From: Aureococcus anophagefferens
Lineage: Eukaryota; Sar; Pelagophyceae; Pelagomonadales; Pelagomonadaceae
Length of the DNA stretch: 64,000 nt
Assembly (NCBI RefSeq): GCF_000186865.1
Contig: NW_008705568.1
Location: 397,513 to 461,512 of the forward strand
Direction: 5' to 3'
How positions within the stretch are numbered: the stretch's first letter is position 1; each line of letters opens with the position of its first letter. This document shows positions 900-64,000 of this stretch, one piece after another. Under the pieces are notes generated by a model. That model was not told the DNA's origin, ran no database searches, and saw nothing but the letters and a program-made list of their open reading frames with translations. The translations under genes and the position numbers were made by a program.

Positions 900-2961
900 T
901 CACAAATCCTTACCAGCGTCGTCGTCCGTGCGGCCGCGGCGCGCCCGGGTGGCCGCCTCCGCGCGGCCCTTCGCGGACCTCGCGTAGGCCGGGCTGCCCC
1001 GCGCGTCGTCCGGGGCGCCGTAGATCCAGACGCGCTTCGCCTCGCGCGAGAGGAGCTTGAACTCGGGCGTCTGGGCGCCGTAGTGGCGGCGGAAGCGCGT
1101 GACGTTGCGGCCGCACGTCTCGAGGTAGGGCTCGCCCGTGGCGGAGACGGCGACGCAGCCGAAGACGTCGACCTTGAGGCCCGGGCCGTCCCAGACCGTC
1201 GCGCGCTGGGACCGGGGCCCGGCGAGGTCGCAGACGGCCGTGCCCAGCGAGGTGGACCGCGACGCGGCACTGTCGAGGCACTGGTCCGTGTTCCAGACCT
1301 TGAGACCGGCGCAGCACTCGCCCTCGTCGTTCCGGTTCGACCGGTGCCACCAGACGAGACTGTTGCGCCGCCGCTCGAAGACGTCCTTGCACGCGAGCAG
1401 CCGCACCGTGTCCCTGGGCTTCGCCGCGGAGCCCCACGTCCGGCCCGCGAGCCCGAGGCAGAGGCCCGACGCCTCGTGGCGGAGCTGGAACGTCTTGGCC
1501 GGCAGCACGCCGCCGTCGCGGTAGACGTACTTGAAGCGCCGCAGGTACCACTCGAAGGACGCCGCGGGGGCGCCGTCGTTGCACGTCGCCATGCGCGACT
1601 CGATGGCCGTCGCGTTGACGCCGTTGTGCGGCTCCCAGGGCTTGTTGCTCGCCTTGAATTGGACGAAGGGGTCGAAGCCTGTGTGGAAATCAACCACTGG
1701 TTTGGGGGGTCCCCACCAAACTTCAGAACTGTCTAGCTCCGTCAAATCGATGTCGATTCGGCTGATTTTTGGACGAATCGATTGCTCTCGTCGAGTTCTC
1801 GACTTGCGTCGAAACTTTTAAAATACGCTCACATTGAAGTTGGATTGAAGATTTGAATTCCACACAGGTCGAAGCTGAGGAGCTTCGCGCCGTACCAGCC
1901 GCCCATGTGGGCCTTGCCCGCGCGCGCGATGTTCGTCGCCTTGGCATTCGGGGGCACGCGGTACTTGGACCGCGTCGCGGGCTTGGCCGCGTCGCGCCAC
2001 ATGTGCGCGACGTACGACCGGGTCGCGGACACGATCTCGCCGCCGCAGCGCCAGATCCGCAGCGACTGGTCGATGTTCTCGCCGCCCCAGCCGCGCATGG
2101 CGTCGTCGTAGCCGCCCGTCTCTTTCCACCAGCGCCGGCTCATCGCCAGCAGCCCGCCGGACATGACCTGCGCCGAAATCGACCGGTGCGCGGGCGGACT
2201 CTCTCTCTCGGTCGACCCGAAGCCGATTCGGCTGATTCTTCGACGAATCGATTGCTCTCATAGAAGAGATCGTGTCGAACACATTGAAGTCGGATCTCCA
2301 CGCGGGACGTGACCGGCACGAACTCCGTGTCGTCCTTGGTCCACTTGAACTCGCCGTCGAACGTCAAATAGCACTTGCTCATGCCCTCGGTGCCGGGCGG
2401 CGGCCGGCCGAACTCCGTCCACGTGTCGACGTCCAGATTGGTGATCGTCGGCACGACGACGCGCTTGTAGTTCTTCTCGACGTGGGACACGAAGGGGACC
2501 CAGTAGTCGGGCGCCTGCGCGGTCGAAGCGCTCGCGATCGAAGCGCTCGCGCGCGGTCGAAACGACGCCGTTTCGGCTGAATTCTGGACGAGTCGTGTGC
2601 TCTCGGCGCGTTCTCATCGAATGTGCGTCGAAACCGTTCGCATACGTGATTTTCGACGCTGGCCGCGCGCGGGTTTCACGTGGCAGTCGAAGAAGACGAC
2701 GATGCCGCCGCGCGCGGCGTCCGCGCCCGTCTTCTTCGCCCCGATGAGCCCCCGGGGCTCGTCGTGCGTGAAGAAGCGGACCTTGTAGGTGTCCGCGGCG
2801 GCGAAGCGCTCGAGGGGCGGGTCCGACGCGTCGTCGACGATGATGATCTCCTCGAGGCGCTCGGCCGGAGTCATCTCCCAGACGCTCTTCGCCGTCCGCT
2901 CCATGAACGCGTACTCGTAGGCGCAGGGCAAAACGACGCTCAGCGTGAGGAGGGCGACCAT
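900..2961 (-). CDS. polypeptide N-acetylgalactosaminyltransferase (GT27) with C-terminal lectin-like domain
   Basis: Four exons on the minus strand: 2961-2671, 2514-2314, 2167-1876 and 1678-900 (520 residues, lengths sum to a multiple of three). The enzyme would start mucin-type O-glycosylation by moving GalNAc from UDP-GalNAc to Ser/Thr in the Golgi. Visible signs are the GT2-like start (SVVLPCAYEY), a DxH metal motif as D92-C-H94, the acceptor-site block WGGENID followed by RIWRCGG, the stretch SFEWYLRRF near the lectin junction, and a ricin-type lectin-like tail with LRHEASGLCLGL. This lectin module binds sugar and is normal for the family. The N-terminal membrane anchor usual for GalNAc-transferases is absent from this start; an upstream exon or a missed start could supply it. 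All three introns are family-B introner copies. Confidence 0.85.
1679..1867 (-). mobile_element. introner element, family B copy 1 (intron 3 of the GalNAc-transferase)
   Basis: 189 bp with terminal inverted repeats CTGTGTGGAA / TTCCACACAG. On the gene strand it is flanked by a perfect 8-bp duplication GCTTCGAC (1868-1875 and 1671-1678). The intron is 1875 to 1679, a GC-AG intron of phase 1; the donor GC is the first two bases of the duplication and the acceptor AG is the element end. Confidence 0.93.
2168..2305 (-). mobile_element. introner element, family B copy 2, shortened (intron 2 of the GalNAc-transferase)
   Basis: 138 bp, about 50 bp shorter than intact copies, but it keeps the family core and a GCGCAG end. 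Target duplication GTCACGTC / GTCATGTC matches at 7 of 8. GT donor, phase 0; intron 2313 to 2168. Splicing joins VPVMSGGLLAMSRR, which fits the family exactly. Confidence 0.88.
2515..2662 (-). mobile_element. introner element, family B copy 3, diverged (intron 1 of the GalNAc-transferase)
   Basis: The most decayed of the three copies in this gene. It keeps a CTGCGC end and a core close to CGTCCAAAAATCAGCCGAA. The duplication has faded to 6 of 8 (GCGCGCGG / GCGCCCGA). GC donor, phase 0; intron 2670 to 2515. Confidence 0.75.
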
Positions 2962-3140
2962 CGCGCCGAGGTCCGGCTGTCTCAGTCGCCCGCGTGCCCG
3001 CCCGCACGGCTTTTGCCTTGAGCAGTTTTGAGCGAGCAAAATTTCTTGCCACAGACTTGCACTGACAAAAACCTACAGCAACGCGCCGCCGCACCGTCAA
3101 CGCCCCCCCTCGAGCCGCGCCGTCAACGCCCCGGAACACG

Positions 3141-3389
3141 ATGCCTTCGTGGGAAGACGTTTGGAAGTCCGTCGGCAAGACGTCGGTCTTCATGCTCTTC
3201 TTCGTGTACCACAAGTACTTTAAGTCTTCCGACGGCGACGCGGAGGGGGAGTCGTCGTCGTGGAGCATGCCCAATCTCCCGCCGGAGCTCCTCGGCTTCC
3301 TCGCGGCCGTCCTCGCCCTCGGCGGCTTTCGGGTTTTGCGCGGGAACGTCGTTCGCGAGCGCGCGGCCGCGGCGGCGAAGGCCGCTTGA
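3141..3389 (+). CDS. small membrane protein, unknown
   Basis: 82 residues from ATG. A hydrophobic stretch near residues 14-26 (TSVFMLFFVYHKY) and a stronger one near 50-67 (LLGFLAAVLALGGF) suggest one or two membrane segments around an acidic, Ser-rich loop. It is divergent from the GalNAc-transferase, with 179 bases between start codons; that gap is visibly less GC-rich than the genes and probably holds both promoters. No family recognised. Confidence 0.55.
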   Translation: MPSWEDVWKSVGKTSVFMLFFVYHKYFKSSDGDAEGESSSWSMPNLPPELLGFLAAVLALGGFRVLRGNVVRERAAAAAKAA

Positions 3390-3658
3390 CCGCGCGAGGC
3401 GAGGAGGCTCGACGGGAGCGCCGCTGGGGGGACGTCTGCGTCAAAGACGACGACAACGCGAAAGCGGGAATAAGGACATACATACGACTGCTTCGCGTCT
3501 GGCTCCGCCTCCGCGTCGCCGCCGCGCCGTCGGGCGAGCGCTCCGCAATCAAGCTCCTCCTCCGCACTCGCATCGCGAGAGAACAAACGAGGTCTCGAAA
3601 AAAAAAGCACGCTAGCTCGAGAGAACAAAAAGGGGGCCCGTTACTCGGCGACGAAACA

Positions 3659-5651: not shown

Positions 5652-8202
5652 ATGGATGCGAGGCGGGCGTTCCTCGCCACGGCCGTCGCGTGTGCAGCAG
5701 CCCAGCGCTGGTGCGATGCGAACCTCTTCGCGCCGCCGCGGCCGGCGATCGAGCTGCCCATGGAGCTGGCCCACGCCGGCGGCGTCGCAACGCAGACCGT
5801 CTTCGAGGTGCGCCGCGGCGACCGCATCGACGACGCGTCGCTCGCGTTCGCGCACGCGTGGCGCCTCGGCGACGCGCAGCTCGAGCGGTTACGCAAGGCC
5901 GCCCACGACGCCGTCAAAACCGGCGCCGTCGTGCCGTCCGCGGTCGCGGTCGTCAGCGACGACGGCCGCCACGCCGCGTGGGCGGCCGCCGGCGGCGCCG
6001 TCGTCGCGCTCCTGCGGCGCGGCGCGGACCCGCCGGCGGCCTCGGACTGCGCCGCCGCCGCGAGCGCCGGCGCCGCGGGCTTCGGCTTCGTCGACGCGAA
6101 CGACGGCCTCGGAGGCGCGCTACGAGACGCCGCGGCCGCGGCGCCGCCGGGCGCCGCGGTCGTCGTTTTAGCGGAGGCGCCGGACCCGCCGGCGCCGTCG
6201 CTCCAGGCGTGCCTCGCGGCCCACGCGCGCGCGGGCTACGCGCGCGGCGACCCCGGCGGCGCGCTCGTCTTGGCCGCGCCGTCGCCGAACGGCGGCGGCG
6301 ACGCCGCGCTCGTCTTCCCGCGGGAGCTCCTCGACCGCTGGTGGGCGCCCGTCGCGGCCGCGCCCTGGGCCACCGAACCGGCACCGTCGGACGTCGAGGC
6401 GGCGCTCTTCGCCGCGGCGGCCCATCGCGAAGGCGCGTTCCTGCGGGCCTGGGCCTGCGTGGAAATCACCCGCTGGTTTGGGACGTCCCGACCAAACTTC
6501 TCTAGCTCGGTCACATCGACGTCGATTCGGCTGATTTTTGGACGAATCGATGGCTCTCGTCGAGTCCTCGAAGCACGGCCGAAGAGTTCGGCTTCAACTA
6601 CGCGCACATCGAAGTCGGGTGGAAGATTTGAGTTCCGCGCAGGCCTGGGCCCTCGTCGCGGCCGCCGTCGCGGACGAGCGACCGCGGGAGGCAGGGCAGC
6701 AAAAGGGTGATTCAACGTCGCTTCAACGTGAGTGTTCCGCGCGCGCGCGTTCCGAAAAAAGCATCCACGCTTCGAGGCCGTTCCGAGAGATGATCGCTCG
6801 TCCAAAAATCAGCCAAAACGAGTGGAAAACGGCCGAGATATGAGCCTTTGAAGTTGGGAATTTCGCACCCTTTTGCTGCCCAGGCGGGAGGACGCCGTCG
6901 ACGAAGGCGAGGCGGGCCCGCTCGCCGTCGACTGCGGCGGGCCCTGCCCCGGGTTCGTCGTCGTCGTCTACCAGCAGGGCCCGTCGGACACGTCGACGTC
7001 GGGCACGTTCGCGGATATATCGGCGGCGGTCGTCGCGGGCCTCCGCGGCCTCGGCCTCGCGGCGCGCGCGGAGACCTGCGTCGCGCTCACGGACGGCTGC
7101 CGCTTCGCCCTCGACGGCGAGCAGGAGGTCGCCCTCGGCGCGCACAACCTCCAGGCCTACGTCGACGTCGACGCGGACGCGCCCGTCGTTTTAGGGCCGC
7201 GGCGGCCGCTCTTCTACGACGAGGCCGCGGTCCTCTACAACTTCGAGTACGTGCCGCCCGACGACCTGGAGACCCTCGCGGCGGGCATGGCACAACTCCA
7301 GAACGGCGCCCGCGGCGACGGCGGCCTCACGAACGCGGCCGGTTCCTTCCAGGGCAGCACAAAAGAGCGAAATTCCAAAGGCTCCGATCTCGGCCATGTT
7401 CCACTCGTTTCGGCTGATGTTTGGACGAGCGATCATCTCTCGGAGCGCTCTCGAAGCGTGGATGTGTTTTCCGGAACGCGCGCGCGCGGAACACTCACGT
7501 TGAAGCGACGTTGAATCTCTCTTGTCCCGCCCAGGTTCCTTCGCGACGGCCGCGACGCTCGAGGTGCTCCGGCGCGCGAACACCGTCTGGGACTACAGCG
7601 CGTCCAACGTCCCGAGCCTCGCCGCCCTCGGCATCTCGGCGACGCACGTGCCCCTCGGCGACGCGCCGCCCTGGCGCATACGCCCGGCGCTCGCGGCCGC
7701 GGTGTCGGCGAACGCCTCGTCGTCGCTCCCCGTGCTCTTCTACGGGACGCTCACGCGGCACCGCGCGGCGACGCTCGCGGCGATCCGGGCGGGCCCCAAC
7801 GGCCAGCCCGTGGTCCACGCCAACGCGGCGACGGACGGCACCTTCGGCGCGGCGCTCGACGCGCAGATCGCCGCCGCGGACGTCGTGCTCAACCTCCGCG
7901 CGTTCGGCGACCGCGACGACGAGTGGAAGATGCCGCGCCTCGCCAAGCTCTTCGCGAACCGCAAGTTCGTCATCTCCGAGGGGACGTGCGACCCGGGGGG
8001 GCAGTGCGAGGCCTACGCGGGCGGCCTCGTCTTCGCGGAGCGCCGCGACCTCAAGGCCGCGGTCGCCTACTACCGCGACCGGCCGGCGGAGCGCGCGGCC
8101 ATCGCCGACCGCGGCCACGCCCTCTTCGCGACCCGGTCCATGGCCACCGTCCTCCGCGGGCCCGTCCAGGCGCTCCTCGACGGCCGCCGCGGCGTAACTT
8201 GA
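5652..8202 (+). CDS. secretory-pathway glycosyltransferase-like protein, four exons
   Basis: Exons 5652-6446, 6643-6683, 6884-7341 and 7535-8202 give 653 residues with the frame kept throughout. The start MDARRAFLATAVACAAAQ looks like a signal peptide. The C-terminal half carries a pattern seen in CgeB/COG4641-like glycosyltransferases: a VLYNFEYVP block, then VWDYSASNVPSL, a VPLG turn, VLFYGTLTRHRAATL, a VVLNLRAFG strand and KFVISEG near the donor-sugar site. The N-terminal 260 residues are not recognised. Function is therefore probably transfer of a sugar in the ER or Golgi, with acceptor unknown. All three introns are introner copies (one B, two A), and the second exon is only 41 nt, trapped between two insertions. 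Confidence 0.75.
6455..6642 (+). mobile_element. introner element, family B copy 4
   Basis: 188 bp, ends CTGCGTGGAA / TTCCGCGCAG, inserted antisense to the gene. Perfect duplication GCCTGGGC (6447-6454 and 6643-6650). GC-AG intron 6447-6642, phase 0. Splicing rebuilds EGAFLRAWALVAAAV. Confidence 0.95.
6692..6883 (+). mobile_element. introner element, family A copy 1
   Basis: 192 bp, ends CAGGGCAGCAAAAGGGTG / CACCCTTTTGCTGCCCAG, sense orientation. Perfect duplication GCGGGAGG (6684-6691 and 6884-6891). GC-AG intron 6684-6883, phase 2. It lies 41 nt downstream of the preceding introner intron. Confidence 0.96.
7350..7534 (+). mobile_element. introner element, family A copy 2
   Basis: 185 bp, inverted relative to copy 1 yet spliced in the same host gene. 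Perfect duplication GTTCCTTC (7342-7349 and 7535-7542). GT-AG intron 7342-7534, phase 1; splicing rebuilds NAAGSFATAATLEVL. It shows that both element orientations give a usable acceptor. Confidence 0.95.
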
Positions 8203-12374: not shown

Positions 12375-15300
12375 TTAGGACCCGCTGTTCAGCAGGCCGC
12401 CCATGGCGAACGAGTAGACGGAGATCTCGACGCTGCCCAGGGACCCCTTCTTGAAGAGGAACCGCTGGGGCCGCATGTTGATGCCGAACTCGGAGCACAG
12501 GTGCTCGATGCCCTCGCGCTCGCGCTCCTCGCAGGGGACGACGGCGAGCCAGGTCCGCGCGAGCAGCCGCTCCGTGCCGCCGTGGCCCTCGGGCCGCTCG
12601 AAGTTGACGACGCACTTGCCGAGGAGCGAGTCGTTGAGGTAGTCGTTCTTCGAGAAGAGGAAGAGCGTCGCGCGCGGCGCCTCGCCGTCCTCGAAGGCGA
12701 AGGTCAGGTCCTTGTTCCACACGGGGTTCAGCGTCGACCGCACGGGCGCCGTGACGGACTCCGCGCCGCCGTACTGGCAGACGACGTAGGGGTTCACGGA
12801 GCCGTACTCCGCCGCGTGCCCGCCGCCGAAGATCTTCCGCGCGCGGTGCACCGAGACGACGACCTTGCGGTCCGCGGCGTCGGGCACGCCCGGCGCGACG
12901 TCGACGGCCCGCGGGCGGCCGAGCGCGCGGCCGTCGTCGGACTCGCCGTCGCTCGGCGGCTCCTCGGTGCACGCGAGCGCGAAGCAGCCCGTCGCGCCGA
13001 CGACCTCGTTCTCGACAAAGTCGATGGCGATCTGGCGGTCGCGGCGCTTCTTCTTCGACGACTCGCGCCGGTGCGGGCTCCGCGCCTGCTTCTCCGGGTC
13101 GAAGAGCTGGATGACCTTCAAATCGTCGTCGTCGCCGCCGCTCCGGCGCCGCGGCTCCGGCGGCGACGCGCGCCGCGGCGGCGTCGCCGCGTAGGCCGGC
13201 GGCACGGCCTGCTCCGGCACGGTCGCGCCCGGCGGCGGCGGCGCGAGGAAGGGGATGCCGTCGGGCGGCGGGTCGCTGTCCGTGCCCACGGACCGGTGGC
13301 TCACCTGCGACGCGGACGCGGCCGGCGACGTGAGGCGACTCGTCTCCGACGGGCTGCTGCCGTCGTCGCGCTCGTCGCTCGACGACGCCGGCCGCGCCTT
13401 CTGGTGGTCCATCATGATCTTGTAGGCGAGGGACGCCGACTTGACCGTGGCCGGGCAGAGGCCCGCCTCGTCGACGACCGCGGCCGGCGACGCGAGCGGC
13501 GGCGGCGGCGGCGGCGGCGGCTCGTCGCTCTCCTCCGCCGCGGTTTCCCCATTGTCCGCGTCCGCCGCGGCGTCCTCCTCCGCCGGGACCTCGTCGTCGT
13601 CGTCGAAGGCCGGCGCCGCAATGGGCTCCGGCGGCGACGACGACGCGCGCCGGTCCTCGAGCGCCTCCTCCGTCTCGCGCAGGCGCCGCCGCAACGAATC
13701 TAGTTCCGCCTCGAGGTGCTGCTCGCGCTCCGACGTCGCCCAGGCGGACGACACGCGGCTCAGCACGCTCAGCTCGCTGTGCTCGTCGCCTAGTAAACTC
13801 CGCGGGCTCGCCGCGGCCGGCGGCGGCGGCGGCCGGTCGCTCAGGAGCGGCGGCGGCCGGTCGTTCAGCAGCCCGAGGACGACTTCGTCCTCGTCGATGG
13901 ACGAGCTCAAAGCCCGGCGCGTCTCCGGCGCGCAGTGCTCCAGCGCGCGCCGCTCCGCGTCCCGCAATTCCCCCAGGTACGCCTGGAGCAGCCGCCGCTC
14001 GTTGCGCTCGCCGCACATGGCGAAGATGGCGTCCGTCGCCTTCTGCTTCTCCGACAGGTGCTCGCCGTCGAGGTGGATCGTCCGCATGCGCGCGGCGAAC
14101 TTGAAGCTGGACAGCGTCTCGGGCGCCGTCGCGAACGCCGGGGACGCCGCGAAGACGAAGAGCACGCGCGCGCCGGGCCCGCCGATGACGTCCTGCATCA
14201 AAAACGTGAGCTTCGAGTTCCGGTAGGGCACGTGGCTCCGCTTCTTGTCGATGGCCTCGAAGACGTCGCCCAAAGCGCTCAGCGACCGGTTGATGCACGC
14301 GGCCTCCTTGAGCACCTGCGTGGAAATCAAATCTTCGAGCCGACTTCAATGTGAGCGTATGCGACAATTTCGACGCGCGATTTTCAGCCGTGCTTTGAGA
14401 GCTTGACGAGAGCGATCGATGTGTCCAAAAATCAGCCGAATCGACTTCGATGTGACCGAGCTCGAGAGGTTTGAAGCGAATAGCCCAACCAGTTGTTGAT
14501 TTCGGCACGATTCAGCACCTCGCCGGACGCGCCGCTCTTCGCGACGCGCTCGGACCCCGCGAGGTCCACCAACCACAGCCGCCCGCCGCCCGCGGCCTCG
14601 ACGATGACGACGACGTGGGACCGCGAGGACGTCGCGTTCAGCAACGTCGACGACGTCGCGCGGCGCCGGTTGCCCGCGTCGAAGACGCGCAAGAAGTGGG
14701 CCATGTCGCCGATGCCGACCTTGGACACGTCCGGCGCGTGGGCGCCGCCGCCGTCGGGCTTGAGGCGCACGCTGAGCTTCGTCTTCTCGTGCATGGGCGT
14801 CGACTGCGTCCTCCGGAGCGGCGCGGTGCCGGAGCCGCGGCGCTGCGCTATTGTCGCGCGGCGCTCCGGCGCGGCCGACGCCCGGCGCTGGGGCCGCTTC
14901 GGCGGGAGGCCGCCGCCGACCTCGTCGAGCAGGTCGTAGACCTCCTCGTTGTGCACCTCGAGCATGGACACGCGGAGCGCCGCGTCCTCCGAGGCGTCGC
15001 GCTTCAGCGACGCGAGCAGCACCTCCACGGACTGGAAGGCGATGCCGAGCTTCGGCGTCTCGCCGTCCAGATCGCCGACGACCGTGTAGGTCTTGCCGCC
15101 GCCCGTGGCGCCGTAGGCGAAGACCGACGCGGAGCAGCCCCGGAGGACCGCGTCCGCGAGATTTTCGATGGACTCGAAGACCTCGTCCTGGGTCGTCTTC
15201 GCGTCCCAGACGTCGTCGAACTCGAAGGCCCGCTCCTTGAAGGGCAGGCCCTGGCCCTCGCAGTCGACGACGACCGTGTGGCCCTTGCCCGCCCGTTTCA

Positions 15301-17451
15301 CGAACGCCGCGGACGTCCGCGCCTTCGGGTTCAGCTTCGCGGCGACCTCCGGCGGCGGGCCCCGCGACGCGTCCGTCGGAATCAGCGGCCGGATGCGGCA
15401 GACGACCTGGATGCTGCCCAACGCCGCCTGGATTCGAGAAAACCGCTCCCACGCGACCAACCTTTGCCGCTGGCACGCGAGCGGCAGGTCCGCCGTCGGC
15501 TCGCCGTTCTCCCCCAAAAAGCCCTCGTGGGCGCCGTTGGCCGCGGACCGGCCGCCGAGCTTCTCCACGTCCTCGAGCTTCGCCTGGGCCTCCTCGATGG
15601 AGTCCACGATGTTCGGCGACTCCGCGGCCGCGCCGCGCTGGAGCTCCTGGTAGGCGGCCTTCCGCGCCTGGAGCTGCTCGACGTCCAGCGCCGACTCCAC
15701 GGCGGGCCGGCCGAAGGGCGCCGCCCGGAAGGCCGCGGCGCGCGCGTGGGCGATCTCCGCGAGCTGGTCGCAGACGGGCGACGCGGCGTCGACCGGCGCG
15801 TGGACGATGCAGTACGCGAAGGCCTGGGCCCCCCAGCGGTTCGCGTGGGCGCTCAGGTGCCGCGGCAGCACGTCGAGGCCGTGGGCGACGTGCTCGAACC
15901 AGAGGTCGCCGTCGACGTCCAGCAGATCCACGGAGCTCAGCGACGCGCAGACGAGCCGCAGCTCGCCGACGACCGCGTCGCCTGGGCAGCACAAGGGTGA
16001 TTCAACGTCGCTTCAACGTGAGTGTTCCGCGCGCGCCCGTTCCGGAAAAAGCATCCACGCTTCGAGTCCGTTCCGAGAGATGATCGCTCGTCCAAAAATC
16101 AGCCGAAACGAGGGGAAAACGGCCGAGATATGAGGCTTTGAAGTTTGGAATTTCGCTCTCTTGTCCTGCCCTGGGCGTCGCCCTCGCTCACGCGGAGCCG
16201 CGCGGCCACGAGCGTGCCGCTCGCGGCGCCCCGCGCCAGCGCGTCGCGCGCGACGGCGTCCGCGGCGCCCTCGTCGCTAACCGGGATCGCCTCCCAGGGC
16301 GTCCGCCGCGGCGACCCCGACGCGTCGGCCTGGACCTCGACGGCCACCGAGAACACGAGGGGCCGCAGCCGCCGCGACCCGCGGCAGGCCAGCGCGTCGA
16401 CCTCCGCGGCGATGGCCTCCAGCGCGCACCAGAACAGGCCGTCGTCGGCGAAGATCGTCGCCTCGGCCGTCGCCGCGTCCTCCGCGTAGGCTAAAATGGA
16501 CCCGGAGAAGCCGTGGACCGGCGCGACGAAGGCACTTCCAAAACGCTCCGAGACGGCGTCGTTGCCCGCGCCCGCGTCCCACATCAGCGCGACGTCGCCG
16601 ACCTCGACGCCGCCGATGGCCAGCGCCGTCTCGTGCACGGCCTTGACCAACCCGAGCTCGGGCGCCGCGGCCTGCGCGAAGGGCCGCCTTAAACTCTCCA
16701 GGGGCGCCGCCGCCGCCGGCCGCGACCGGTAGAGCCGGCAGCAGAGCAGCGGCCGCTGGTCCAGCAGCGCGCAGCGGAACGCGAGGTCCGCGGACAGGAG
16801 CCGCTGCCGCCGGCACCGCATGCGGAGCTCGCGCGCGGCGTTGCGGTGGCTCAGGTCCGTCGACATGACGCTCTCCGTGTCCTCGGACCGCGCCCGCGAC
16901 CGCACGCTCAACGCCCGCGGCTTGCCCGCGGGCTGCGGCGCGTCCTGGAGCGCGAGCGACGCCTCGACGACCTCGATCTTCTTCGCGAGCGCGCGCGTCG
17001 CGACCATGCCCTCGCGGTTCGACTCGACGCAGGAGAACAATCGTTTCCGCTCGCTGTGGGAGAAGTGGGCCATGCCCGGGCCCAGCACCGTCGCCAGGCC
17101 GCGCCAGAACTCCGCGTAGCTCACGAGCGTGCCGTCGCCGTGCTTGCCCCACTCGCGCACGAGCGCGGCGCCCGCGACGTCGCGCCGCCGCATGGCCTCG
17201 ACGAGCCGCGCCCAGCACAGGCGCGCGACCTTGTCCTCGCCGCCGCTCGACGACGCCGAGCCGCGGCCGGAGCTGTAGAAGATCGACGGCTTCCGCCGCG
17301 GCGCCGCCGCCGCGCGCGGCGCGGCCGCGGCCATGGGCGTCGAGCTCCGCCGCGGCGGCGGCGGCGGCCGGCCCAGGGTCGCCGACTCGAAGAAGAAGGG
17401 CGCGTCGTCCGGCGTCCGCAGGCCGCCCAGGGACCCCCGCTCGACGGCCAT
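12375..17451 (-). CDS. kinesin with internal motor and C-terminal C2 domain
   Basis: Exons 17451-16182, 15981-14519 and 14315-12375, 1557 residues with the frame kept. The motor starts near residue 620 with VCRIRPLIP. The P-loop is ATGGGKT (K720; most kinesins have GQTGSGKT), switch I is NATSSRSH, switch II is LVDLAGSE and the motor ends near INRSLSALGDVFEAI. After a Pro- and acid-rich linker with coiled-coil potential, a C2 domain lies around 1400-1500 (VVVSVHRARKIFGG, then NPYVVCQYG and LNPVWNKDLTF). The first 600 residues are unassigned. It probably moves membrane cargo on microtubules, with C2 binding lipid or a partner; that role is inferred. Both introns are introner copies, one inside the motor. 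Confidence 0.9.
14316..14510 (-). mobile_element. introner element, family B copy 5 (kinesin intron 2)
   Basis: 195 bp, inserted antisense to the kinesin. On the gene strand the acceptor end is TTTCCACGCAG; the other end has drifted (TCGTGCCGAAATC). Duplication GTGCTGAA / GTGCTCAA, 7 of 8. GT donor, intron 14518 to 14316, phase 0. Splicing rebuilds SGEVLKEAACINRSL in the motor. Confidence 0.9.
15982..16173 (-). mobile_element. introner element, family A copy 3 (kinesin intron 1)
   Basis: 192 bp, antisense to the kinesin. Duplication on the gene strand GCGACGCC / GCGACGCG, 7 of 8. GC-AG intron 16181 to 15982, phase 1. Ends match the family-A inverted repeat. Confidence 0.93.
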
Positions 17452-51885: not shown

Positions 51886-52667
51886 ATGGAACACACGCCG
51901 CGGGTCCTCGCCGTGATCATCATGGACGCCGACGGGAACCGCCTCGTCGCCAAGTACTACCCCGTGGCCGCCGGGGGCCGGACGTTCCAGGCCGGGGGCG
52001 AGACGGCCTACGAGAAGAAGCTCTTCAGGAAGACGAAGCACAACCACGCCGCCGCCGTCGACTCCGACGCGAGGCCTCCCGGCGTCGCGACGACACGAGA
52101 AACCGGGGGGGGGGGGGGGCGCGCGCGGCGCGCGCGACGCGGCGGAGTCCCGCAGGCGGTCATGCTCGACGGCTGCGTCGCCATCTTTCGCGCGCGCGGG
52201 GACACGTTCCTCTACGTCGTCGGCGCGGGCCACGAGAACGAGCTCCTGCTGGACACGGTCCTCGAGGGCCTCTTCGTCGCCCTCACGATCCTCCTCGACG
52301 GCTCGATCGAGTCGCGGTACGTCCTCTCGAATCTGGACATCGCGGCGCGCCGCGCGGGCATCGCGTCTTCGACCCGACTTCAATATGTGTGTTCGACGCG
52401 GTGCGCTCTCCGTGGAGCGCTCGACGAGAGCACACGACGTGTTCCAAAATGAGCCGGAACGCCGTCGATTCGACGGAGCTCCTCGCGCAGGTCATGCTCG
52501 CGGTCGACGAGCTCGTGGACCAGGGCAAGATCCTCGAGGTCGAGCCCAAGACCATCGCGAACCGCGTGCTCATGCGCGGCGTCGACGGCACGACGACGAT
52601 CACGGACATGTCCATCCAGGACGCCATGAAGGTCGCGCAGGAGCAGCTCATCAAGTCCATGTCGTGA
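51886..52667 (+). CDS. COPZ: coatomer subunit zeta (COPI)
   Basis: Exons 51886-52056, 52156-52341 and 52491-52667 give 177 residues, the family length. Zeta belongs to the adaptor-like F-subcomplex of COPI, which coats Golgi-to-ER vesicles. Diagnostic blocks: VLAVIIMDADGNRLVAKYY, AYEKKLFRKT, AVMLDGCVAIF, FLYVVGAGHENELLLDTVL, and VMLAVDELVDQGKILE with IANRVLMR. Intron 1 (52057-52155, GT-AG) is ordinary, 99 nt, and contains 15 consecutive G; it has no stop in frame, so retention would add 33 residues. Intron 2 (52342-52490, GC-AG) is a decayed family-B introner. The assigned donor leaves LSNLDI joined to VMLAVDE, aligning with animal zeta without a gap. Confidence 0.93.
52105..52119 (+). repeat. 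15-G homopolymer inside coatomer zeta intron 1
   Basis: Fifteen consecutive G followed by an alternating GC stretch. It could form a G-quadruplex in the pre-mRNA and is a likely site of length errors. Confidence 0.85.
52350..52490 (+). mobile_element. introner element, family B copy 6, heavily decayed (coatomer zeta intron 2)
   Basis: It keeps CTTCAATATGTGTGTTCGAC, a GAGAGCACACGACGTG segment, and TTCCAAAATGAGCCGGAACG in the place of the family core, and ends CGCGCAG. No target duplication is recognisable now. GC donor at 52342 as judged by protein alignment; phase 0; sense orientation. Confidence 0.72.
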
Positions 52668-52761: not shown

Positions 52762-54540
52762 CTAGAGGGAGACGGAGTCCGCCGCGATCTCGATCTCCGC
52801 GCGGAGGACGACGGCGTCGTTGACGCAGAAGCCGAGCGCCTCGACCTGCGTGAGGACGACGTGGGCGAGGGAGGCCGTGCCCGCGGACGTGGAGATGCGC
52901 TTCGCCTGGTCCGCCTTGGCGCCGAAGACGCGCTGGCCCTCGTGCTTCCGCGTGAGGTGGCTGCCGCCGTTCTGGTGGAGCAACGAGAGCTCGAGCGACG
53001 CGACGCGCGCGAAGGACCGGTCCGACGGCGCGTCGTAGTGGACGTAGAGCGCGACCATGCCCGGCCGCTCGCGCTTGATGCCGCCCTTGTAGAGGTCCAG
53101 GGACCAGGGCGCGCCGCCCGGCGGCCGGTAGCGCGCGCCCTGGCGGAAGCCCGACGGCAGGGCCGACCAGCGCTCGACCTTCCAGGTCACGGTGTGCGTC
53201 TGGGACCCGGACGCGTTGAGGCGCTTCGTGGACCCGGAGCGGAGCACGAGGGGCGTCCGCGCGGTCGGCGCCGGCTTGGCCGCGCGCTTCGCCGCGGGGT
53301 TCTGACTGTTCTTCCGGAGGCGGCTGAGGTAGCCGCCGCCGCCGTCGTCGGGCTCGGGCGTCACGAAGTCGACGGCGCCTGGGCAAGAAAAGGGTGCGAA
53401 ATTCCCAACTTCAAAGGCTCCGATCTCGGCCGTTTTCCACTCGTTTCGGCTGATTTTTGGACGAGCGATCATCTCTCGGAGCGCTCTCGAAGCGTGGGTG
53501 CTGTTTCCGAAACGCGCGCGCGCGGAACACTCACGTTGAAGCGACGTTGAATCACCCTTTTGCTGCCCTGGACGGCGCCGGCCTTCGTCCGCTCCTCGGA
53601 CGTCCAGCGGAGCTGGCGCTCGTGCTCGGCCCAGAGGGCCTTGTGCGCGGACGGCGCGGACGACAGGTTGTTCTCGGGGAAGCGCGTGCGGAACCAGTCG
53701 TCGAAGGTCGGCGGGTCGCGCGTGCGCGCCTCGTCGGACGCGAAGCCGCCGTTCTCGCCGACGAAGCGCTCGATCGCCGCGAAGTCCGCCTCGAGGGCCC
53801 GCGTCTTCAGCTCGTGCCACGACGGCGGGTCCGTCATGACCACGGGCTTCTTGGGCTTCGCGGGCCGCCCGGCCAGGTCGCCGGCGCTCGACGTCGCGCT
53901 CGGCGCGGGCGCCTGGCGGCCCCGCGAGTCCGCGGACGCGGCCCGCGCGGGATACGGCTGGCGGCTCGGCGCGGGCGCGGGGCTCGCGACGACGGCCGTC
54001 GACGTCGCGGCGGCGGCGGCCTTCTGGGCCTCCTGCTGGCGGCGCACGCGGCTCCCCTCGCGGCTCAGCTCCCGGATCCGCGGGCTGTCGTCGCCCCGCG
54101 CGGACCGGCGGCCGCGCGCGCGCGCGGCCTCGCGCCGCTCCTCGCGCTCCGCGGCGGGCCGCCGCTCGGCCTCGGACGGCCTACGAATGGGGATGATGAT
54201 AAGGCTCACATGCGCGAGGCGGGGGGAAGGCGCACCTCGGGCTCGCGGCGCGCTGCCGCGCCTCGCGCATGCGGAGCCAGGACTGGCGCGTCGGCTCGGG
54301 CGAGGACCCGCGCGCGCTCGGCTCGCGGCGGCCGCCGCCGTCGTCGCGGGAGCTCCGGAAGAAGGAGCCCTTGCGGGACGTGCGCTCCGCGCGGCCCCGC
54401 GGCTCCTCGGACCGGTTGAGGCCGTCGACGATGGCCGCGAAGCCGCCGTCGTCGCTGGCCTTGTCCTTCTTCTTCTCCTTGGACTTGTGCAGCGCGAGGT
54501 CGAAGCTGAACTTGCGCCGCGGTGAGAAGGACCGGAGCAT
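52762..54540 (-). CDS. MATH/TRAF-like domain protein
   Basis: Exons 54540-54236, 54180-53579 and 53378-52762, 507 residues. The N-terminal 380 residues are basic and Ser/Pro/Ala-rich with low complexity (MLRSFSPRRKFSFDLALHK, KEKKKDKASDDGG) and a conserved-looking helix (LEADFAAIERFVGENGGF, FDDWFRTRFPENNL). The C-terminal 130 residues form a MATH domain (HTVTWKVERWSALPSGF, WSLDLYKGG, MVALYVHYDA, SFARVASLELSLLHQ, LGFCVNDAVVLRAEIEI). MATH domains bind peptides, often for ubiquitin ligases. Intron 1 (54181-54235, GT-AG, 55 nt) is ordinary; intron 2 is a family-A introner. Confidence 0.85.
53379..53570 (-). mobile_element. introner element, family A copy 4 (MATH gene intron 2)
   Basis: 192 bp, sense orientation. 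Perfect duplication on the gene strand GCGCCGTC (53571-53578 and 53371-53378). GC-AG intron 53578 to 53379, phase 1. Splicing rebuilds EERTKAGAVDFVTPEP. Confidence 0.95.
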
Positions 54541-54665: not shown

Positions 54666-57014
54666 ATGTTGCAGTGCCTTCGGGCAGCATCGATGGCCTT
54701 CCTCTGCGGCGGCTGGTCGGCGCGCGACGCCGTCGAGTGCGCCGACGCGCGGCCCGTCGACGCGGCGTCGATCCTCTGCGACGACGACGACCACTGGTCC
54801 GGGCGGCCCAGCGACGAGCCGTTCCGGCGGGAGCGGGCGCGGCCGCGGGCGAGCTCGGCGCGCTTCGACGTCTCGAAGCTCGCGCCCCGCGCGGAGGAGG
54901 CGCTGCCCCTGCTCCAGTGGCGCGACGTCGACGTCGACTTCAACGGCGCGCGCGCCGTCGCCGGCGTCAGCGGCGCGCTCCGGTGCGGCGGCTTCGTCAG
55001 CGTGCTCTGCAGGGCAGCAAAAGGGTGCAAAATTCCCAACTTCAAAGGCTCATATCTCGGCCGTTTTCCACTCGTTTCGGCTGATTTTTGGACGAGCGAT
55101 CATCTCTCGGAACGGCCTCGAAGCGTGGGCGCTTTTTCCGGAACGCGCGCGCGCGGAACACTCACGTTGAAGCGACGTTGAATCACCCTTTTGCTGCCCA
55201 GGTGCTCGGCCCGTCGGGCGCGGGCAAGTCGACGCTCCTGGACGTGCTCACGGGCCGGCTGCGCGCGACGCGGGGCTCGTGCCTCGTCCTCGGGCGGCGC
55301 CACTCCGCGGCGGCGTTCCGGTCCGTCGCGGCCTTCGTGCCCCAGGACGACTGCTTCCTGCCGCACCTGCGGACGTGGGAGGCGCTCTACTTCGTCGCGC
55401 GGCTCAAGCTCGCGGGCGCCGGCGTCCGCGGCGCGCTGGCCGCGACGGACGCGCTCCTGGCGACGCTGGGCCTCGCGGAGAAGCGCGCGGTCTTCGTCGG
55501 CGGCACGCTGTCCGGCGGGGTCGTCGTCCGGGGCCTCTCGGGCGGCCAGCGGCGGCGGCTTTCGTTGGCGACGGGCCTCGTCGGCGACCCGCGCGTCTTC
55601 CTCATCGACGAGCCCACGTCCGGCCTCGACGCGGCGTCGTGCCTCAAGGTCATGGGCCTTTTGCGCGAATTCGCGTTCAAGACGCGCATGGGCGTCGATG
55701 CCGGCGTCTTTTTGGCGTGGTTTCCCTCCCGGCGAGCCCCGCGCGTCGGTCCCCCGCGATCGCCCTTCACACGCAGGTGCTCTGCAGCATCCACCAGCCG
55801 CGGTCCGCGGTCTGGCTCCTGCTGGACACGGCCTACTTCCTGAGCCGGGGGCGCCTCGTCTTCGCGGGCCCGACGGCGGGCGCGGTCGACTGGTTCCGCA
55901 CGCTGGGCTACGTCGGACGGACCTTCGAGGGCAACGCGGCGGACTTCGTCCTCGACCTCACGGCCGTCGACTTCGACAAGGCCCCCGAGGTCTTCGGCAA
56001 GAAGACGATGCGCAGCGACGACGACGTCGCGCGCGCCGCGGACGCCTTCGCGGAGCGGCGGCCCGCGGAGGCCCTGATCGCGGCGCCGCCGTCCGCGGCG
56101 CCGCTGCCGCCGGCGCCGCGGCCGTCCTACGCCGTCCAGTGCCGCGTGCTCGCCTGGCGCGTCGCGCTCGGCCATCTGCGGCACCCCGGCAACTTCGCGG
56201 CGCGCGCGGTCCTGACGGTCTTATGCGGCCTGCTGTGCTGGGCCGTCTTCGGCGCGCAGGCGCCGCAGGACCTCGCGGAGCTCGAGACCGACCCGGACGC
56301 GGCCCTGAGGCACGCGACGTACCGCGGCGCCGCGTTCACGATCCCGCTCTTCGTGACGCTGATCTGCTTCGTGCCCCTGGGCTGCCTCATGTACGACCGC
56401 CAGCGCGTTTCTTCGGCGTCTCCGCGTCGACGCGTCCGCGCTTTCGGCTGATATCCGTTCCTTCACTCCCGTCTGTTCCTAGGTTCTTCATCCGCGAGCG
56501 GCGGGGGGAGCTGTATTCCTGCGCGGCCTACGCGCAGGCCTACGCGGCCGTGGAGCTGGTCTGCGTGGTCCTGATCAACTTCCCCGTCGCGGCGGTCTAC
56601 GAGATCGCCTGCGGCTTGGGCGGGACTCCGCCGGGCTACGCGGCGGCCGTCGTGCTCCTCGGCGCCATGTTCGGCCAGGTGATTCTCTGCGCCTGCGCCG
56701 TATCGCCGTCGGGCGACGTCGCCTTCGTCTTCGCCGCGGCGGTGTTCATCCACGCGTTCGTGACGTCGGGCCTGCTCGTGTCGCTGCGGACGCTCGCGCC
56801 CGCGCCCCGCGCGCTGTCGCTCCTGAGCCCGCTGCGCTTCGCCTACGACCTCGTATTGCGCGTCGAGCTCGGGCCGGCCTACGCGGCGCGCGAGGGCTAC
56901 GACGCGACCTTCGAAAGCTCCGTCGGCCGATCCTGCGGCGTCCTCGCGGCCATGTTCCTCTTCTACCACGGCGCGACCTACCTCGGCCTGCGCTTTTTGT
57001 ACCGTAAGGCCTAG
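54666..57014 (+). CDS. ABCG-type half-transporter
   Basis: Exons 54666-55001, 55202-55693, 55777-56402 and 56483-57014, 661 residues, the usual half-transporter length with nucleotide-binding domain before membrane domain. Seen: Walker A GPSGAGKST, Q-loop FVPQDDCFLP, signature LSGGQRRRLS, Walker B VFLIDEPTSGLD and H-loop CSIHQP. The membrane part has about six helices (RAVLTVLCGLLCWAVFGA to AAMFLFYHGATYLGLRF). It exports lipids or hydrophobic molecules; substrate unknown. The first intron is a family-A introner splitting the P-loop strand directly before Walker A. Introns 2 (55694-55776, GT-AG) and 3 (56403-56482, GC-AG by frame) are ordinary. The ATG at 54693 is an alternative start. Confidence 0.92.
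55010..55201 (+). mobile_element. introner element, family A copy 5 (ABCG intron 1)
   Basis: 192 bp, antisense. Duplication GTGCTCTG / GTGCTCGG, 7 of 8. GT-AG intron 55002-55201, phase 0. Splicing rebuilds FVSVLGPSGAGKST exactly at Walker A. Confidence 0.94.
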
Positions 57015-58647
57015 AGCGCCGGGAGCGAGCTCGACGACGCGGACCGCTCCGCGCCGAGGGGCTCGAGGGGCCGGAACTTGTCCCGGAGCCAGGCGACGTA
57101 GGGCCGCTCGACGTAGGCCTCGTAGCACACCGCGGCGACGCAGAGCGCGAGGACGTAGGCCGCGAAGTTCTCGCCGCCGGCCTTCGTGTCGAGGCCGACG
57201 GCGGAAAAGGCCGCGTGGAGCGGCCACTGGAAGAGGTAGATCTCGAAGGACGCGCGGCCCAGGGACCGCGGCGCGTCGTGGCGGCAGAGGGCCGCGAAGA
57301 TCGAGCCCGGCTCGCCCTCGAGGGCCGTCGCGTCGCGCGCCGCGCAGTAGAGGAAGACCGCGAAGAGCCTGTGCCGGAAACGACCAGTGGAACGCCCCGT
57401 CCAGCAAAAACTTCAAACCTCTCGAGCTCGGTCACATCGAAGTCGATTCGACCGATTTTTGGACGGATCCTTTTCTCTCGGCGAGTGCTGTTGAGACAGT
57501 GAACGGAGTACGTCGAACCCGTGCGAATACATGAAGTCGTGTCGCATATTTTTGTTTCCCGCCCGGCGAAGAGCGGCGCCAACCCGTGGTCGAAGAGCTC
57601 CTCGGCGCCCGTGCGGTAGCGGCTCCGCGGGTTCGGGGCGAACAGCACGAGCGCCGCGACGGCGAGGCAGGACGCGTCGGCCGCGGGGGCCGCGAGGCGC
57701 CAGCGCGGCCGCGCCGCCTGCGTCGCCGCGAGCTCCGCGGCGACGACGCCTGGGCAGGAAAAGAGAGATTCAAGTTCGCTTCAATCTGAGTGTTCCGCGT
57801 TCCGGAAAAAGCATCCACGCTTCGAGACCGTTCCGAGAGATGATCGCTCGTCCAAAAGTCAGCCGAAACGAGTGGAACACGGCCGAGATCGGAGCCTTTG
57901 AAGTTGGGCATGTCGCTCTCTTTTCCTGCCCCGGACGGCGCCGAGGAGGAAGTCGCAGAGCTGCGCGGGCGGCCAGAGGTACATGGCGTCGTGGACGGAC
58001 CCGAAGGGGGCGTCGCCGCGCCGCAGCAGGCCCACGGCGACGGCCGTCGGCAGCGCCGCCAGCGCGAGGCCGAGCGGCGCGAGGACCTTCGCCGGCCGCT
58101 CGTAAACCAGTCTGTCGTAGACCGCGGGGTAGAGCAACCACGACGGCGCGAGGGCGGCGACGGTCCAGGTCTGGCCGTCGGGGCACCACCGCGCGGGCGC
58201 GAGCCAGGATTCCACCAGCAGGACGCACCGGCCGACGTGGCCCGGCGCCGCGTCGCCGCCGGCGGCCGCGACCATGGCCCACGACGCGGCCATCGCGACG
58301 TACGTCGCCAGCAGCACGCGGCCGAAGCGCCGGCCGTACCATTTCTTCGCGCCGTCGCGCCACCGCGCGGCGTCGTCGCGGTGCCGCTGCAGGGCCGCGA
58401 AGGCGCCCCGCGACGCCCAGTGCGTCACGAAGCCGCTCAGCACGATAAAGTAGTCGACGGCCGCGTCGGAGCGCCAGAGCGCCTTGACGAGGGCGCCGTC
58501 GCTCGAGTGCGGCGAAAAGTGCTGGCAGACGATCCACAGCGACGCCAGGCACCGGCTCCCGCTCACGAACTCGAGGCGCGGCACGCGCGGGCGCTGCGGC
58601 TGGAAGCTGAGGGCGAGGGGCGAGTGCGGGTACATGGACCGGTACAT
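57011..58647 (-). CDS. acyltransferase-3 family membrane protein (OafA/NolL-like)
   Basis: Exons 58647-57942, 57749-57575 and 57368-57011, 412 residues. Family members transfer acetyl or other acyl groups to sugars or lipids. The N-terminal signature is present (RCLASLWIVCQHFSPH, with the catalytic-type His, then DYFIVLSGFVTHW), followed by about ten hydrophobic helices, including LATYVAMAASWAMVAAAGG, LAPLGLALAALPTAVAVG and FAAYVLALCVAAVCYEAYV. Both introns are introner copies. Its stop overlaps the ABCG stop inside CTAG at 57011-57014. Substrate unknown. Confidence 0.85.
57369..57566 (-). mobile_element. introner element, family B copy 7 (acyltransferase-3 intron 2)
   Basis: 198 bp, sense orientation. 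Perfect duplication on the gene strand GCTCTTCG (57567-57574 and 57361-57368). GC-AG intron 57574 to 57369, phase 2. Ends GGCGGGAAAC / GTTTCCGGCACAG have diverged from the family consensus. Confidence 0.93.
57750..57933 (-). mobile_element. introner element, family A copy 6 (acyltransferase-3 intron 1)
   Basis: 184 bp, antisense. Duplication GCGCCGTC / GCGTCGTC, 7 of 8. GC-AG intron 57941 to 57750, phase 1. It lacks part of the alternating GC tract found in the other family-A copies. Confidence 0.93.
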
Positions 58648-62367: not shown

Positions 62368-62458
62368 GCGCTACTACTACTGGCACCGCCTCTCGCCCCG
62401 CCGCCTCCCGGAGCGCGGCGCGGCGTCGCGAGACGGTCAGCCAGCTTACCGCTAAAAA

Positions 62459-62575
62459 GGCGCCCCGGGGGCGCTCGGGGGAGAGGGGGGCCGCGCGGCG
62501 GCCCCGCGGGGGCGCGCGGCGCGCCGCGGGGGGCGGGGCGGGGCGAGGGGCGCGCGGCGCGCCCGCCTCCGCCGC
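62459..62575. other. extremely GC-rich intergenic tract between convergent genes
   Basis: Nearly all G and C, with runs such as GGGGGCGCTCGGGGGAGAGG, several GGGG blocks and short palindromes (GGCCGCGCGGCGGCC). It is between the HrpB 3' end and the stop of the MyTH4-FERM gene and could form stable hairpins or G-quadruplexes in either transcript. Confidence 0.6.
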
Positions 62576-62576
62576 C

Positions 62577-63798
62577 CTAGCCGTCGTCGCCCGTGGCGGC
62601 CATGATGGCGTTGATGTAGTCGAGGATGATGCCGGCCATGTCCGCGGCCTGGCTCGTGGACAGCTTGAGCTCGAAGGTCGTCTCGTCGGCCAGGTTCCAG
62701 ATGAAGAGGGAGAAGATGGACGAGGAGCCGCCCCAGCGGCAGACGTCGGCGTAGCCGAAGTGGTGGAGGACGTCGTAGGTCTCCGAGTCGAGGATGTACA
62801 TGCCGCCGTGGCCGAACGCGACGGACACGTCGCCCGGGAGCTCCGCGACGATGGGCGGCTCGTCCTTGGCGACGACGCGGTGGCAGTGGAAGAAGGATGC
62901 GCCGTAGAGGGGGTAGGCGGCGCAGGTCTTGACGAATTTCTGCTGGAGGTCCTCGATGAGCGCCTGCTGCGCGTCCTCGTCGCCCTCGGCGTCCGCGACG
63001 CCGAGCGGCGTCCGGAGCGCGACGAGCTTCCCGGCGACGCCGTCGATGGCTTCGCGGAACTTGGGCGGCACGAAGTCCAGGAGCGCCGGGTCCTCCATGG
63101 CGTCCAAATCGCCGGCGCAGCCGCTAAAGTCGTCGACCATGGCCGCGTAGAGCGAGATCGCCGCGAGCTCGAGCGCGGCGGGCTCCGATTCGGGGAAGAT
63201 CTTGCCCTCGTTGATGACCTCGTCCTCGGCCTGGAGGTAGACGAGGCGGTTGAACATGGCGTCGTCGCTGGGCCCGTTCTGCTGGGGCAGGAAGATCTTG
63301 CGCTTGTAGACGAACTTGAAGTGGCGCTTCTGCCGCGCCTTGAGCACGATGACGTCGCCCATGAAGTCCTTGTCCTGGCAGGGCTTGGGCGTGCGCTCCA
63401 GGTCCGCGTAGGGCTTGTGGCCGTCGGGGTCGTCGACGCCCTCGTCGCGGGGCAAATCATAAACGAAGATGCCGAACGTCGCCGCGCGCTCGTCCGTGAG
63501 CTCGAGGAACTGCGCGCAGATCTCCGCGACCTTGCCGCAGTTGAGGTCCGGCGTCACGGGCAGGTCCTCCGTGAGGACGACGTGGTCCACGAGGGAGATC
63601 GTCGCCAGGATCGGCGGCCGCTCCGTGTACGCGGCGATCTCGTCGACGGACGGCGCGAAGCCCGACGCGCCGGCCTCGAGCATGCCCTCGAGCGTGCGCA
63701 GGCAGTACTTGGCGTAGTTGCGGATGGCGCCCCGCTTCTCCTTCTGCACCATCAAAAAGTTGATGACGTAGTTCTCGAGCTCCGCCGTCGGCGGGAAC
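62577..63798 (-). CDS. MyTH4-FERM protein, C-terminal part (gene continues past the right edge)
   Basis: The last exon encodes about 406 residues. A MyTH4 segment (ENYVINFLMVQKEKRGAIRN, YAKYCLRTLEGML, FAPSVDEIAAYTERPPILATI) leads into a FERM domain (VAEICAQFLELTDERAATFG, HFKFVYKRKIF, NRLVYLQAEDEVINEGKI, LELAAISLYAAM, FVKTCAAYPLYGASFF, YDVLHHFGYADVCRWG). This pair forms the cargo-binding tail of some myosins and plant-type kinesins; the motor should lie to the right. The exon begins in phase 2 after a family-B introner acceptor. Confidence 0.88.
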
Positions 63799-64000
63799 CT
63801 GCGCGGAAATCGACCGCCGGTTCGGGACGTCCCGACCAAACGTTGACGTGCTCTCGCTCGGTCACATCGAAGTCGTTTCGGCCGACTTTTAGACGAATCG
63901 ACTGCTCTCGTCGAGTTCTCGAAGCAGAGCCGATGAGCTCGCGTCGAACCTGTCGAATACGCGCACATTGAAGTCGGGTTGAAGCTTCGACGTCCGCGCG
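63799..64000 (-). mobile_element. introner element, family B copy 8, runs to the window edge
   Basis: Sense orientation. The acceptor side ends TTTCCGCGCAG and is followed by GTTCCCGC (63798-63791), the expected target duplicate, predicting a GT donor just past the edge. The other inverted repeat (CGTCCGCGCG) is partly visible at 63991-64000. Confidence 0.88.

Follow-up and report, generated by a model that had tools for sequence, protein, structure and literature searches.

Introners in a 64-kb stretch of the Aureococcus anophagefferens genome: a probable 5′ splice site in the target duplication and terminal bases that follow the gene strand

Results

Introns and genes of the window

The stretch of DNA analysed here, referred to as the window (64,000 nucleotides; G000:C8:397513-461512), is part of the genome of Aureococcus anophagefferens, which comprises 49.05 Mb in 86 contigs with a GC content of about 0.72. 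This species gave the best named hits for three proteins; for one of them, a long single-exon helicase, the hits are at 83% over 92% of the query and at 93% over 59%, and an ENA record reaches 97% along the full helicase query. About 83% of the window was scored as coding with a codon model seeded by four reading frames that hold known motifs; an unsupervised codon model was dropped because it converged on a shadow frame. The window contains 19 introns, most of which carry short repeats that we regard as introners. The original prediction, made from the letters alone, had placed 14 repeat-bearing introns of two families beside five ordinary ones. All 14 were found at these places, and profile searches assigned eight to family A (about 203 bp) and six to family B (about 192 bp), spread over eight genes at unrelated positions. 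Four of the remaining introns indeed belong to no recognised family, but the fifth matches a third family, C, so that at least 15 of the 19 introns count as introners, and four families were found instead of two.

Three family A introners lie on the minus strand in a polypeptide GalNAc-transferase-like gene. The first (1679..1875) starts with GC, has a perfect 8/8 target site duplication (TSD), GCTTCGAC, and a core antisense to the gene, and is read through in the relatives P0123 and P0124. The second (2168..2313; 5′ GT, TSD 7/8) leaves the join FVP/VMSGG as in relatives, and the third, an old copy (2515..2670; 5′ GC, TSD decayed to 6/8 by eye), leaves CHVKP/A with the same length as in the homologues P0126-P0128. 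A plus-strand gene with a sub-threshold glycosyltransferase-like match has a family A copy (6447..6642; 5′ GC, TSD GCCTGGGC, 8/8) and two family B copies, one with its core antisense (6684..6883; 5′ GC, TSD GCGGGAGG, 8/8) and one with its core sense (7342..7534; 5′ GT, TSD GTTCCTTC, 8/8). These three lie within 1.1 kb, the first two being separated by an exon of 41 bp, and P0241 is uninterrupted at each of them. A kinesin gene on the minus strand contains a family A copy (14316..14518; 5′ GT, TSD 7/8), across which the kinesin motor is contiguous at GASGE/VLKEA, and a family B copy (15982..16181; 5′ GC, TSD 7/8). The family C intron (30518..30674, plus strand, 5′ GC) is in a subtilisin-like protease gene; it is decayed and enlarged and matches the family built from a 200-kb sample of contig C1 with an nhmmer E-value of 4e-14.

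Further along, a coatomer zeta-like gene on the plus strand has an intron without recognised family (52057..52155; 5′ GT, end set by hand) and an old family A copy (52342..52490; 5′ GC, TSD decayed), whose removal gives the join NLDI/VMLAVDEL within a contiguous clathrin adaptor domain. On the minus strand follow a family B intron with antisense core (53379..53578; 5′ GC, TSD GCGCCGTC, 8/8) and a 55-nt intron of no recognised family (54181..54235; 5′ GT). An ABC transporter gene on the plus strand is interrupted in its Walker A region by a family B copy (55002..55201; 5′ GT, TSD 7/8), the removal of which restores SVLGPSGAGKS, and by two introns without recognised family, 55694..55776 (5′ GT) and 56403..56482 (5′ GC); the latter yields a 661-residue frame with the expected C terminus, which starts at 56407 or 56409 do not. 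An acyltransferase-3 gene on the minus strand carries a family A copy (57369..57574; 5′ GC, TSD GCTCTTCG, 8/8) and a family B copy (57750..57941; 5′ GC, TSD 7/8). The last intron, of family A (63799..64000, minus strand), is cut by the window end, so its 5′ end lies beyond the window; its 3′ TSD copy begins with GT.

The original prediction had claimed that the reading frame is kept in all eight complete intron-bearing genes. Seven of them translate through once the introns are removed. In one of these, the coatomer gene, the computed translation removed 102 nt, and a 99-nt intron with a proper AG was set by hand. The eighth, the subtilase gene, gave an open frame of 844 residues after removal of 139 nt without proper borders, and the 157-nt GC-AG intron 30518-30674 has the same phase. 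The borders of the old copies 2515 and 52342, whose duplications are decayed, were set by hand from protein motifs. As had also been proposed, protein motifs are rebuilt: Pfam domains continue over most exon joins, and the kinesin, ABC, GT2, acyltransferase-3 and clathrin-adaptor domains are rebuilt by exact splicing. Among the 18 introns with their 5′ end inside the window, 11 are GC-AG (10 of 14 introners and one of four others). The idea that GC-AG is confined to introners was rejected in view of intron 56403, which is GC-AG without a recognised family.

Repeat families and copy number

For statistics, the window was combined with the 200-kb C1 sample (L001-L020 joined; 150 kb readable, 50,046 of 200,000 bases being N) and 29 loci of 3 kb each. 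This combined sample gave 74 introner hits, of which 73 were delineated; L024, which duplicates part of the C1 sample, was left out, and the copy at the window edge (63799..64000) was not delineated. The polarity and folding counts for family B refer to 45 copies with a terminal AG and a length of 180-195 (at least 170 for folding). This filter left out C1 166834 and C1 184199 (weak, short hits), L036:2222 (diverged, ends not resolved) and L029:1499; the last fits the family B strand rule described below on the other strand and was added by hand as an antisense, 46th copy. Where counts for family A are out of 20, the copies have a terminal AG, a length of 185-206 and a score above 100.

Families A and B share a core, which a core search found in 13 window copies, with a degenerate fourteenth at 52342-52490. 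The cores are related (cross-family profile matches with E-values down to 9e-12), but the ends differ: family A starts with CTGTGTGG or CTGCGTGG and family B, in most copies and in gene sense, with C(A/G)GGGCAGCAAAAGGGTG. Introns made by full copies are 200-211 nt long, and the inverted arms pair at no fewer than 10 of 18 positions in 43/45 family B and 13/20 family A copies. In the copy L028:2648-2841 the 5′ end is that of family A but the 3′ end is B-like (CTGGGCAGG inward), which looks like an exchange of ends.

After masking of A and B, the C1 sample retained an 80-nt repeat that ends with GTAG and mostly has 8-bp duplications. It represents families C and D, of about 81 nt, which start with C(A/G)GCGTC. 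In the C1 sample seven hits, including a partial one, belong to family C (53066, 141949, 171608, 171911, 178353, 179187 and 188327), and the related family D was hit at C1 172046 and at L023:274-355. A tRNA search in four C1 loci that hold the 80-nt repeats yielded a single predicted tRNA-Ala, in L015 and away from the repeat there.

A genome-wide search, which the original prediction had proposed as a check, gave 1,287 family B left ends with at most three mismatches (none with the reversed pattern as control) and 1,291 exact matches to a 16-mer of the core (none in the control). Family B thus has about 1,290 copies in the 49-Mb genome. The window had been called a dense local sample with a clear rule, and it is indeed denser than the genome average (for family B, about 94 per Mb vs about 26 per Mb); for A and B together, 14 copies in 64 kb compare with 15 hits in the 150 readable kb of C1. 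Coding flanks were clear in 66 of the 73 sampled hits, so the repeats do not occur mainly outside genes. The other seven are two mis-delineated old copies, two adjacent copies, each lying in the flank of the other, and three whose coding signal is weak or absent. With about 83% of the window coding, the coding location of the copies alone is a modest enrichment.

Outside the genome, one exact 20-mer of the core was seen in viral contigs, in the phage-like contig L052, and was judged on reading to be a chance match. The family B end had no match in viral contigs, the core had none in bacterial and archaeal genomes, and the plasmid search gave no match.

Target duplication and splice-site rule

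The target duplication is 8 bp long. Its two copies agree at 7/8 or 8/8 positions in all 11 well-preserved complete window copies and in most of the 73 delineated hits. The rule alluded to above can now be sharpened: read in gene sense, the layout is GYNNNNNN (Y, C or T), an element ending with CAG (TAG in family C), and again GYNNNNNN. In family A the first TSD begins with GC or GT in 21 of 21 copies of the combined sample, and among the first 100 of 163 exact matches genome-wide the TSD begins with GY, in either orientation, in 97, compared with 35.7% of random window 8-mers. In family B, 99 of the first 100 of 127 exact matches (unfiltered for AG) fit the rule, against about 20% expected; one uses GA, and its flanks are coding on the strand implied by its ends (score 37 vs 4). 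Families C and D, taken with the window copy in a fixed register, have GY in 8 of 10 cases (20% expected; p = 8e-5); one D copy, judged by eye, has a duplication shifted by 2 nt and likewise begins with GT, and one C copy does not fit.

Compared with coding 8-mers beginning with GY, positions 3-8 of the family B TSD deviate by no more than 0.11 bit (position 8, p 0.003; position 6, p 0.016; the others above 0.05). Almost all of the donor signal that the DNA shows thus appears to lie in the first two bases. By this constraint on the sequence, one splice site is carried by the element and the other would be taken from the target. A better conservation of the 3′ arm than of the 5′ arm, which would have suited the 3′ splice site, was unsupported (p = 0.70 and 0.43).

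GC-AG introns and donor composition

The donors of the 100 listed family B copies are 50 GC, 49 GT and 1 GA; the unambiguous family A copies have 26 GC and 40 GT. In coding DNA of the window GC is 3.6-fold more frequent than GT (0.155 vs 0.043). Measured against this, a GT site is kept about 3.5 times as often as a GC site in the listed family B copies. GA, with its single copy, is kept about 77-fold less often than GT, and GG does not occur. Donors drawn from coding DNA will therefore be about half GC, although GT is favoured about 3.5-fold per site.

The strain Micromonas RCC299 is, we assume, M. commoda. Iwata and Gotoh (2011, PMC3033335) gave a share of GC-AG introns of 39.6% for A. anophagefferens, 22.2% for Micromonas pusilla and 2.7% for Micromonas RCC299, and called this an "enigma" in view of a normal U1 5′ end. 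Gozashti (2022, PMC9860276) counts 3,566 introners for M. pusilla and 44 for M. commoda. Sampling of donors from the target, as it appears from the sequence, would explain the share of 39.6% and with it the enigma of 2011. In the titles and abstract openings that were listed we found no link between introners and GC-AG introns; Huff 2016 or two introner papers of 2025 may state it. A search for U1 with RF00003 gave no match in the genome, and the control genomes were silent too. Each insertion takes a new 8-mer of coding DNA as donor, so the copies that survive amount to a kind of mutational scan of the spliceosome and show which 5′ sites the splicing machinery seems to accept.

Empty sites in relatives

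P0123 and P0124, at 95-97% protein identity, are uninterrupted at sites 1679 and 2168, and P0241 is uninterrupted at 6447, 6684 and 7342. At all five sites the protein of the relatives at the join is the one predicted by exact splicing, and the comparison includes family A copies as well as family B copies with sense and antisense cores. At the protein level, these empty sites indicate a recent gain of the five introns.

A strand rule at the ends of family B

When 46 family B copies are aligned by their cores, only the second base from each end switches completely with the strand of the gene (p = 2e-13 and 6e-10); weaker differences in columns 15, 17 and 180 may stem from how the loci were picked. 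Among the 100 listed ends, the T-type end (CTG) adjoins RC (R, A or G) on the TSD in 71/71 cases (55 with RC only), and the end with another base (27 A, 1 G, 1 C) adjoins GY in 28/29 (20 with GY only). The exception is the GA copy, in which the TSD alone reads the opposite way and the coding flank obeys the rule. All 10 unselected full copies from the window and C1 obey it too. The core is antisense to the gene in 25 and sense in 22 of 47 copies. Among the 100 listed exact core-left arms, 71 are antisense and 29 are not; arm conservation is no explanation for this. In titles and abstract openings, again, we found no earlier description of this polarity, which Huff 2016 or the 2025 papers may contain.

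The asymmetry leaves the A of the 3′ AG unpaired in the predicted hairpin. In the predicted folds of 42 family B copies, the bases of the 3′ AG are unpaired with a mean probability of 0.91 (A) and 0.22 (G) with the 5′ base as it is, and of 0.007 and 0.015 with a T in its place. The second arm position is mismatched in 45/45 family B copies (other positions, at most 11) and in 10/20 family A copies, the most of positions 1-15. Family A has 12 otherwise perfect arms without the T (A in 7, G in 3, C in 2), all with GY on that side; nine are unambiguously on the 5′ side and three can be read either way. A control T four bases further in was lost three times vs 12 (12/15, p = 0.018).

This strand asymmetry fits a selection for an accessible AG but does not prove it. 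We tentatively propose that a hairpin brings the ends of the intron together, that whatever GC or GT lies exactly 8 nt beyond it can then serve as donor, and that the mismatch at the second 5′ base ("unzipping") keeps the 3′ AG accessible, which might also account for the GC-AG fraction despite a normal U1 5′ end. In family A, as part of this hairpin model, the mismatch would arise secondarily and, where this can be told, on the 5′ side. Against selection for access to the AG speaks that family A copies which keep the T are presumably spliced too, with the AG folding paired in 10/10.

It is conceivable, and a serious alternative, that the rule reflects descent and not selection on the AG: two sister subfamilies, or inversion of the core in place between the inverted repeats, would keep the polarity of the ends. 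The ends are unlike in all 45 filtered full copies, as inversion would give, one clade is mostly antisense (14/16), and the last G stays mostly paired in the ensemble fold (unpaired 0.22), so that the AG is only half freed. Two simple sister subfamilies are nevertheless disfavoured: a single clade of all sense copies was rejected by the approximately unbiased (AU) test (p = 0.008), with eight changes between the orientations (bootstrap 7-10), on a tree that is weakly resolved and has no starred branch; this test is silent on repeated inversion. The alteration of the same position in the 12 family A arms, all with GY on that side, argues against subfamilies and inversion alike. If the hairpin model holds, the strand rule points to an RNA structure that helps a transposon to become splicable.

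Discussion

The families, the duplications, the inverted repeats, the GY and AG rules, the conserved frame and the uninterrupted frames in relatives can all be read from the DNA and protein sequences. Taken together, they make it very likely (a probability of about 0.9) that the repeats are introners, i.e. short non-autonomous DNA transposons that are spliced out with the message exactly restored. The identity proposed originally has thus been borne out: the repeats are short, have 8-bp TSDs and, in A and B, inverted ends, and they occupy genes as introns. An element would insert into a gene and duplicate 8 bp of the target. The 3′ splice site would come from the element, as the CAG that closes it inside the inverted repeat (in family C, TAG). 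The 5′ splice site would come from the TSD, which starts with GC or GT and whose other bases seem to matter little. Insertions without a GY dinucleotide, or with the AG missing or buried, would probably be lost by selection. Splicing as drawn here, movement by a transposase and selection as the filter are what we infer.

Several observations weigh against this reading. Families C and D have no clear inverted repeats. Three of the 100 listed family A copies break the GY rule, one with GA and two with neither. The uninterrupted frames are protein records, and an origin from cDNA is conceivable, although P0241, which belongs to a contig of 7.1 kb and has an additional leader in frame, looks genomic. 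The genome gave no match to the hAT profiles PF05699 and PF14372 or the KDZ profile PF18758, to which the control genomes were silent too, nor to the MULE profile PF10551, which matched in 3/14 controls; copies split by introns or hidden by N are possible, and the quarter of the C1 sample that is N could hide an autonomous copy. Finally, a GY is also present four bases inside the elements of families A and C, in family A in 20/20 copies (12 GT, 8 GC).

This last observation would suit a model in which the element brings both splice sites, the 5′ site being the internal GT or GC, and each insertion adds 12 nt (8 of TSD and 4 of element) or four amino acids. Such a family is depicted for an Aureococcus metagenome-assembled genome (MAG) in Fig. 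2F of Gozashti 2022 (PMC9860276), and all four aligned named Aureococcus models bear extra residues at site 2168 (VTSR in P0121, VASR in P0122, longer stretches starting with VTSR in P0125 and P0131). We consider the model very improbable. The TSD, which is new with each insertion, would not need a GY, yet has it in 97/100 listed family A and 8/10 family C/D copies (20% expected), and the 3′ arm, in which the internal GY cannot act as donor, conserves it to the same degree (12 GT and 8 GC in both arms of the 20 copies). In copy 14316 the internal GC would be in frame but would put four residues into the conserved kinesin motor, and in copy 30518 the internal GTs (30531, 30535) are out of frame, whereas a GC donor at 30518 or 30524 keeps the frame. 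The two close relatives and three distant homologues are without the four residues at 2168. The internal GT is lost in 8/20 family A copies; this had been taken to rule out an internal donor, but the argument was withdrawn, those eight carrying GC.

Annotations that add 12 nt per introner therefore probably picked the wrong, internal site. In family 4 of Aureococcus sp. TARA_AOS_82, as described in PMC9860276, the 8-bp TSD and the GT four bases in are as in the present elements, and the published interval of 77 bp is the family C element of 81 bp minus four bases; the two are likened by description. There 12 nt (4 of element, 8 of TSD) are added, whereas the present copies speak for an exactly restored message and a 5′ site within the TSD, and we suggest that the 5′ site of the 77-bp example was mis-annotated.

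In named Aureococcus models (P0121, P0122, P0125, P0131, P0242 and P0243), stretches are added or lost at or near introners of the window (900-2977 and 5660-8200). In practice this means that protein models of these two aligned genes gain or lose residues at introners, and a gene prediction restricted to GT is a possible cause.

A spread through RNA, in which an excised intron would enter another message by reverse splicing and then be copied back into the genome, is hardly credible: most sampled copies do sit in coding sequence in the splice-competent direction, and a similar mechanism has been proposed for fungal introners, but the 8-bp duplications, the inverted ends and both core orientations (25 antisense and 22 sense of 47) point to DNA transposition, and the old 5′ 8-mer would travel along, when instead it is the new exon that the 5′ 8-mer matches.

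The 8-bp duplication is shared with miniature inverted-repeat transposable elements (MITEs) of the hAT type; these differ in that family A ends with CTG and no match to a hAT transposase was found, in a search without positive control. The family B end CAGGGC, we presume, resembles the ends of such MITEs. Introners of A. anophagefferens were reportedly described by Huff, Zilberman and Roy in 2016, with one splice site carried and one co-opted. They are alike in species, intron length and direct and inverted repeats, and are not known to differ in kind. Passages in later papers give a peak of intron length near 210 bp (PMC9481584) and direct repeats with terminal inverted repeats of constant length (PMC7789003). 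The kind of element and the species are thus already known (Huff 2016; Gozashti 2022), and families A and B have very probably been published. As far as checked, three points are new: the polarity of the family B ends together with the proposed role of the hairpin, a different reading of the 12 added nucleotides, and the donor arithmetic of GC-AG introns. The introners of Amoebophrya, as described in PMC7789003, are similar in their inverted repeats that can pair in the RNA, their direct repeats at exon borders and their unusual splice sites; they differ in being mostly non-canonical introns without a clear terminal dinucleotide and with direct repeats of 3-5 nt, whereas here the 5′ end is GC or GT, the 3′ end AG and the duplication 8 bp. 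Introners are among the best natural records of the birth of new introns.

Apart from the introners, the window has a direct repeat of 58 nt with 81% identity between 3844-3901 and 42205-42262, in GC-rich sequence.

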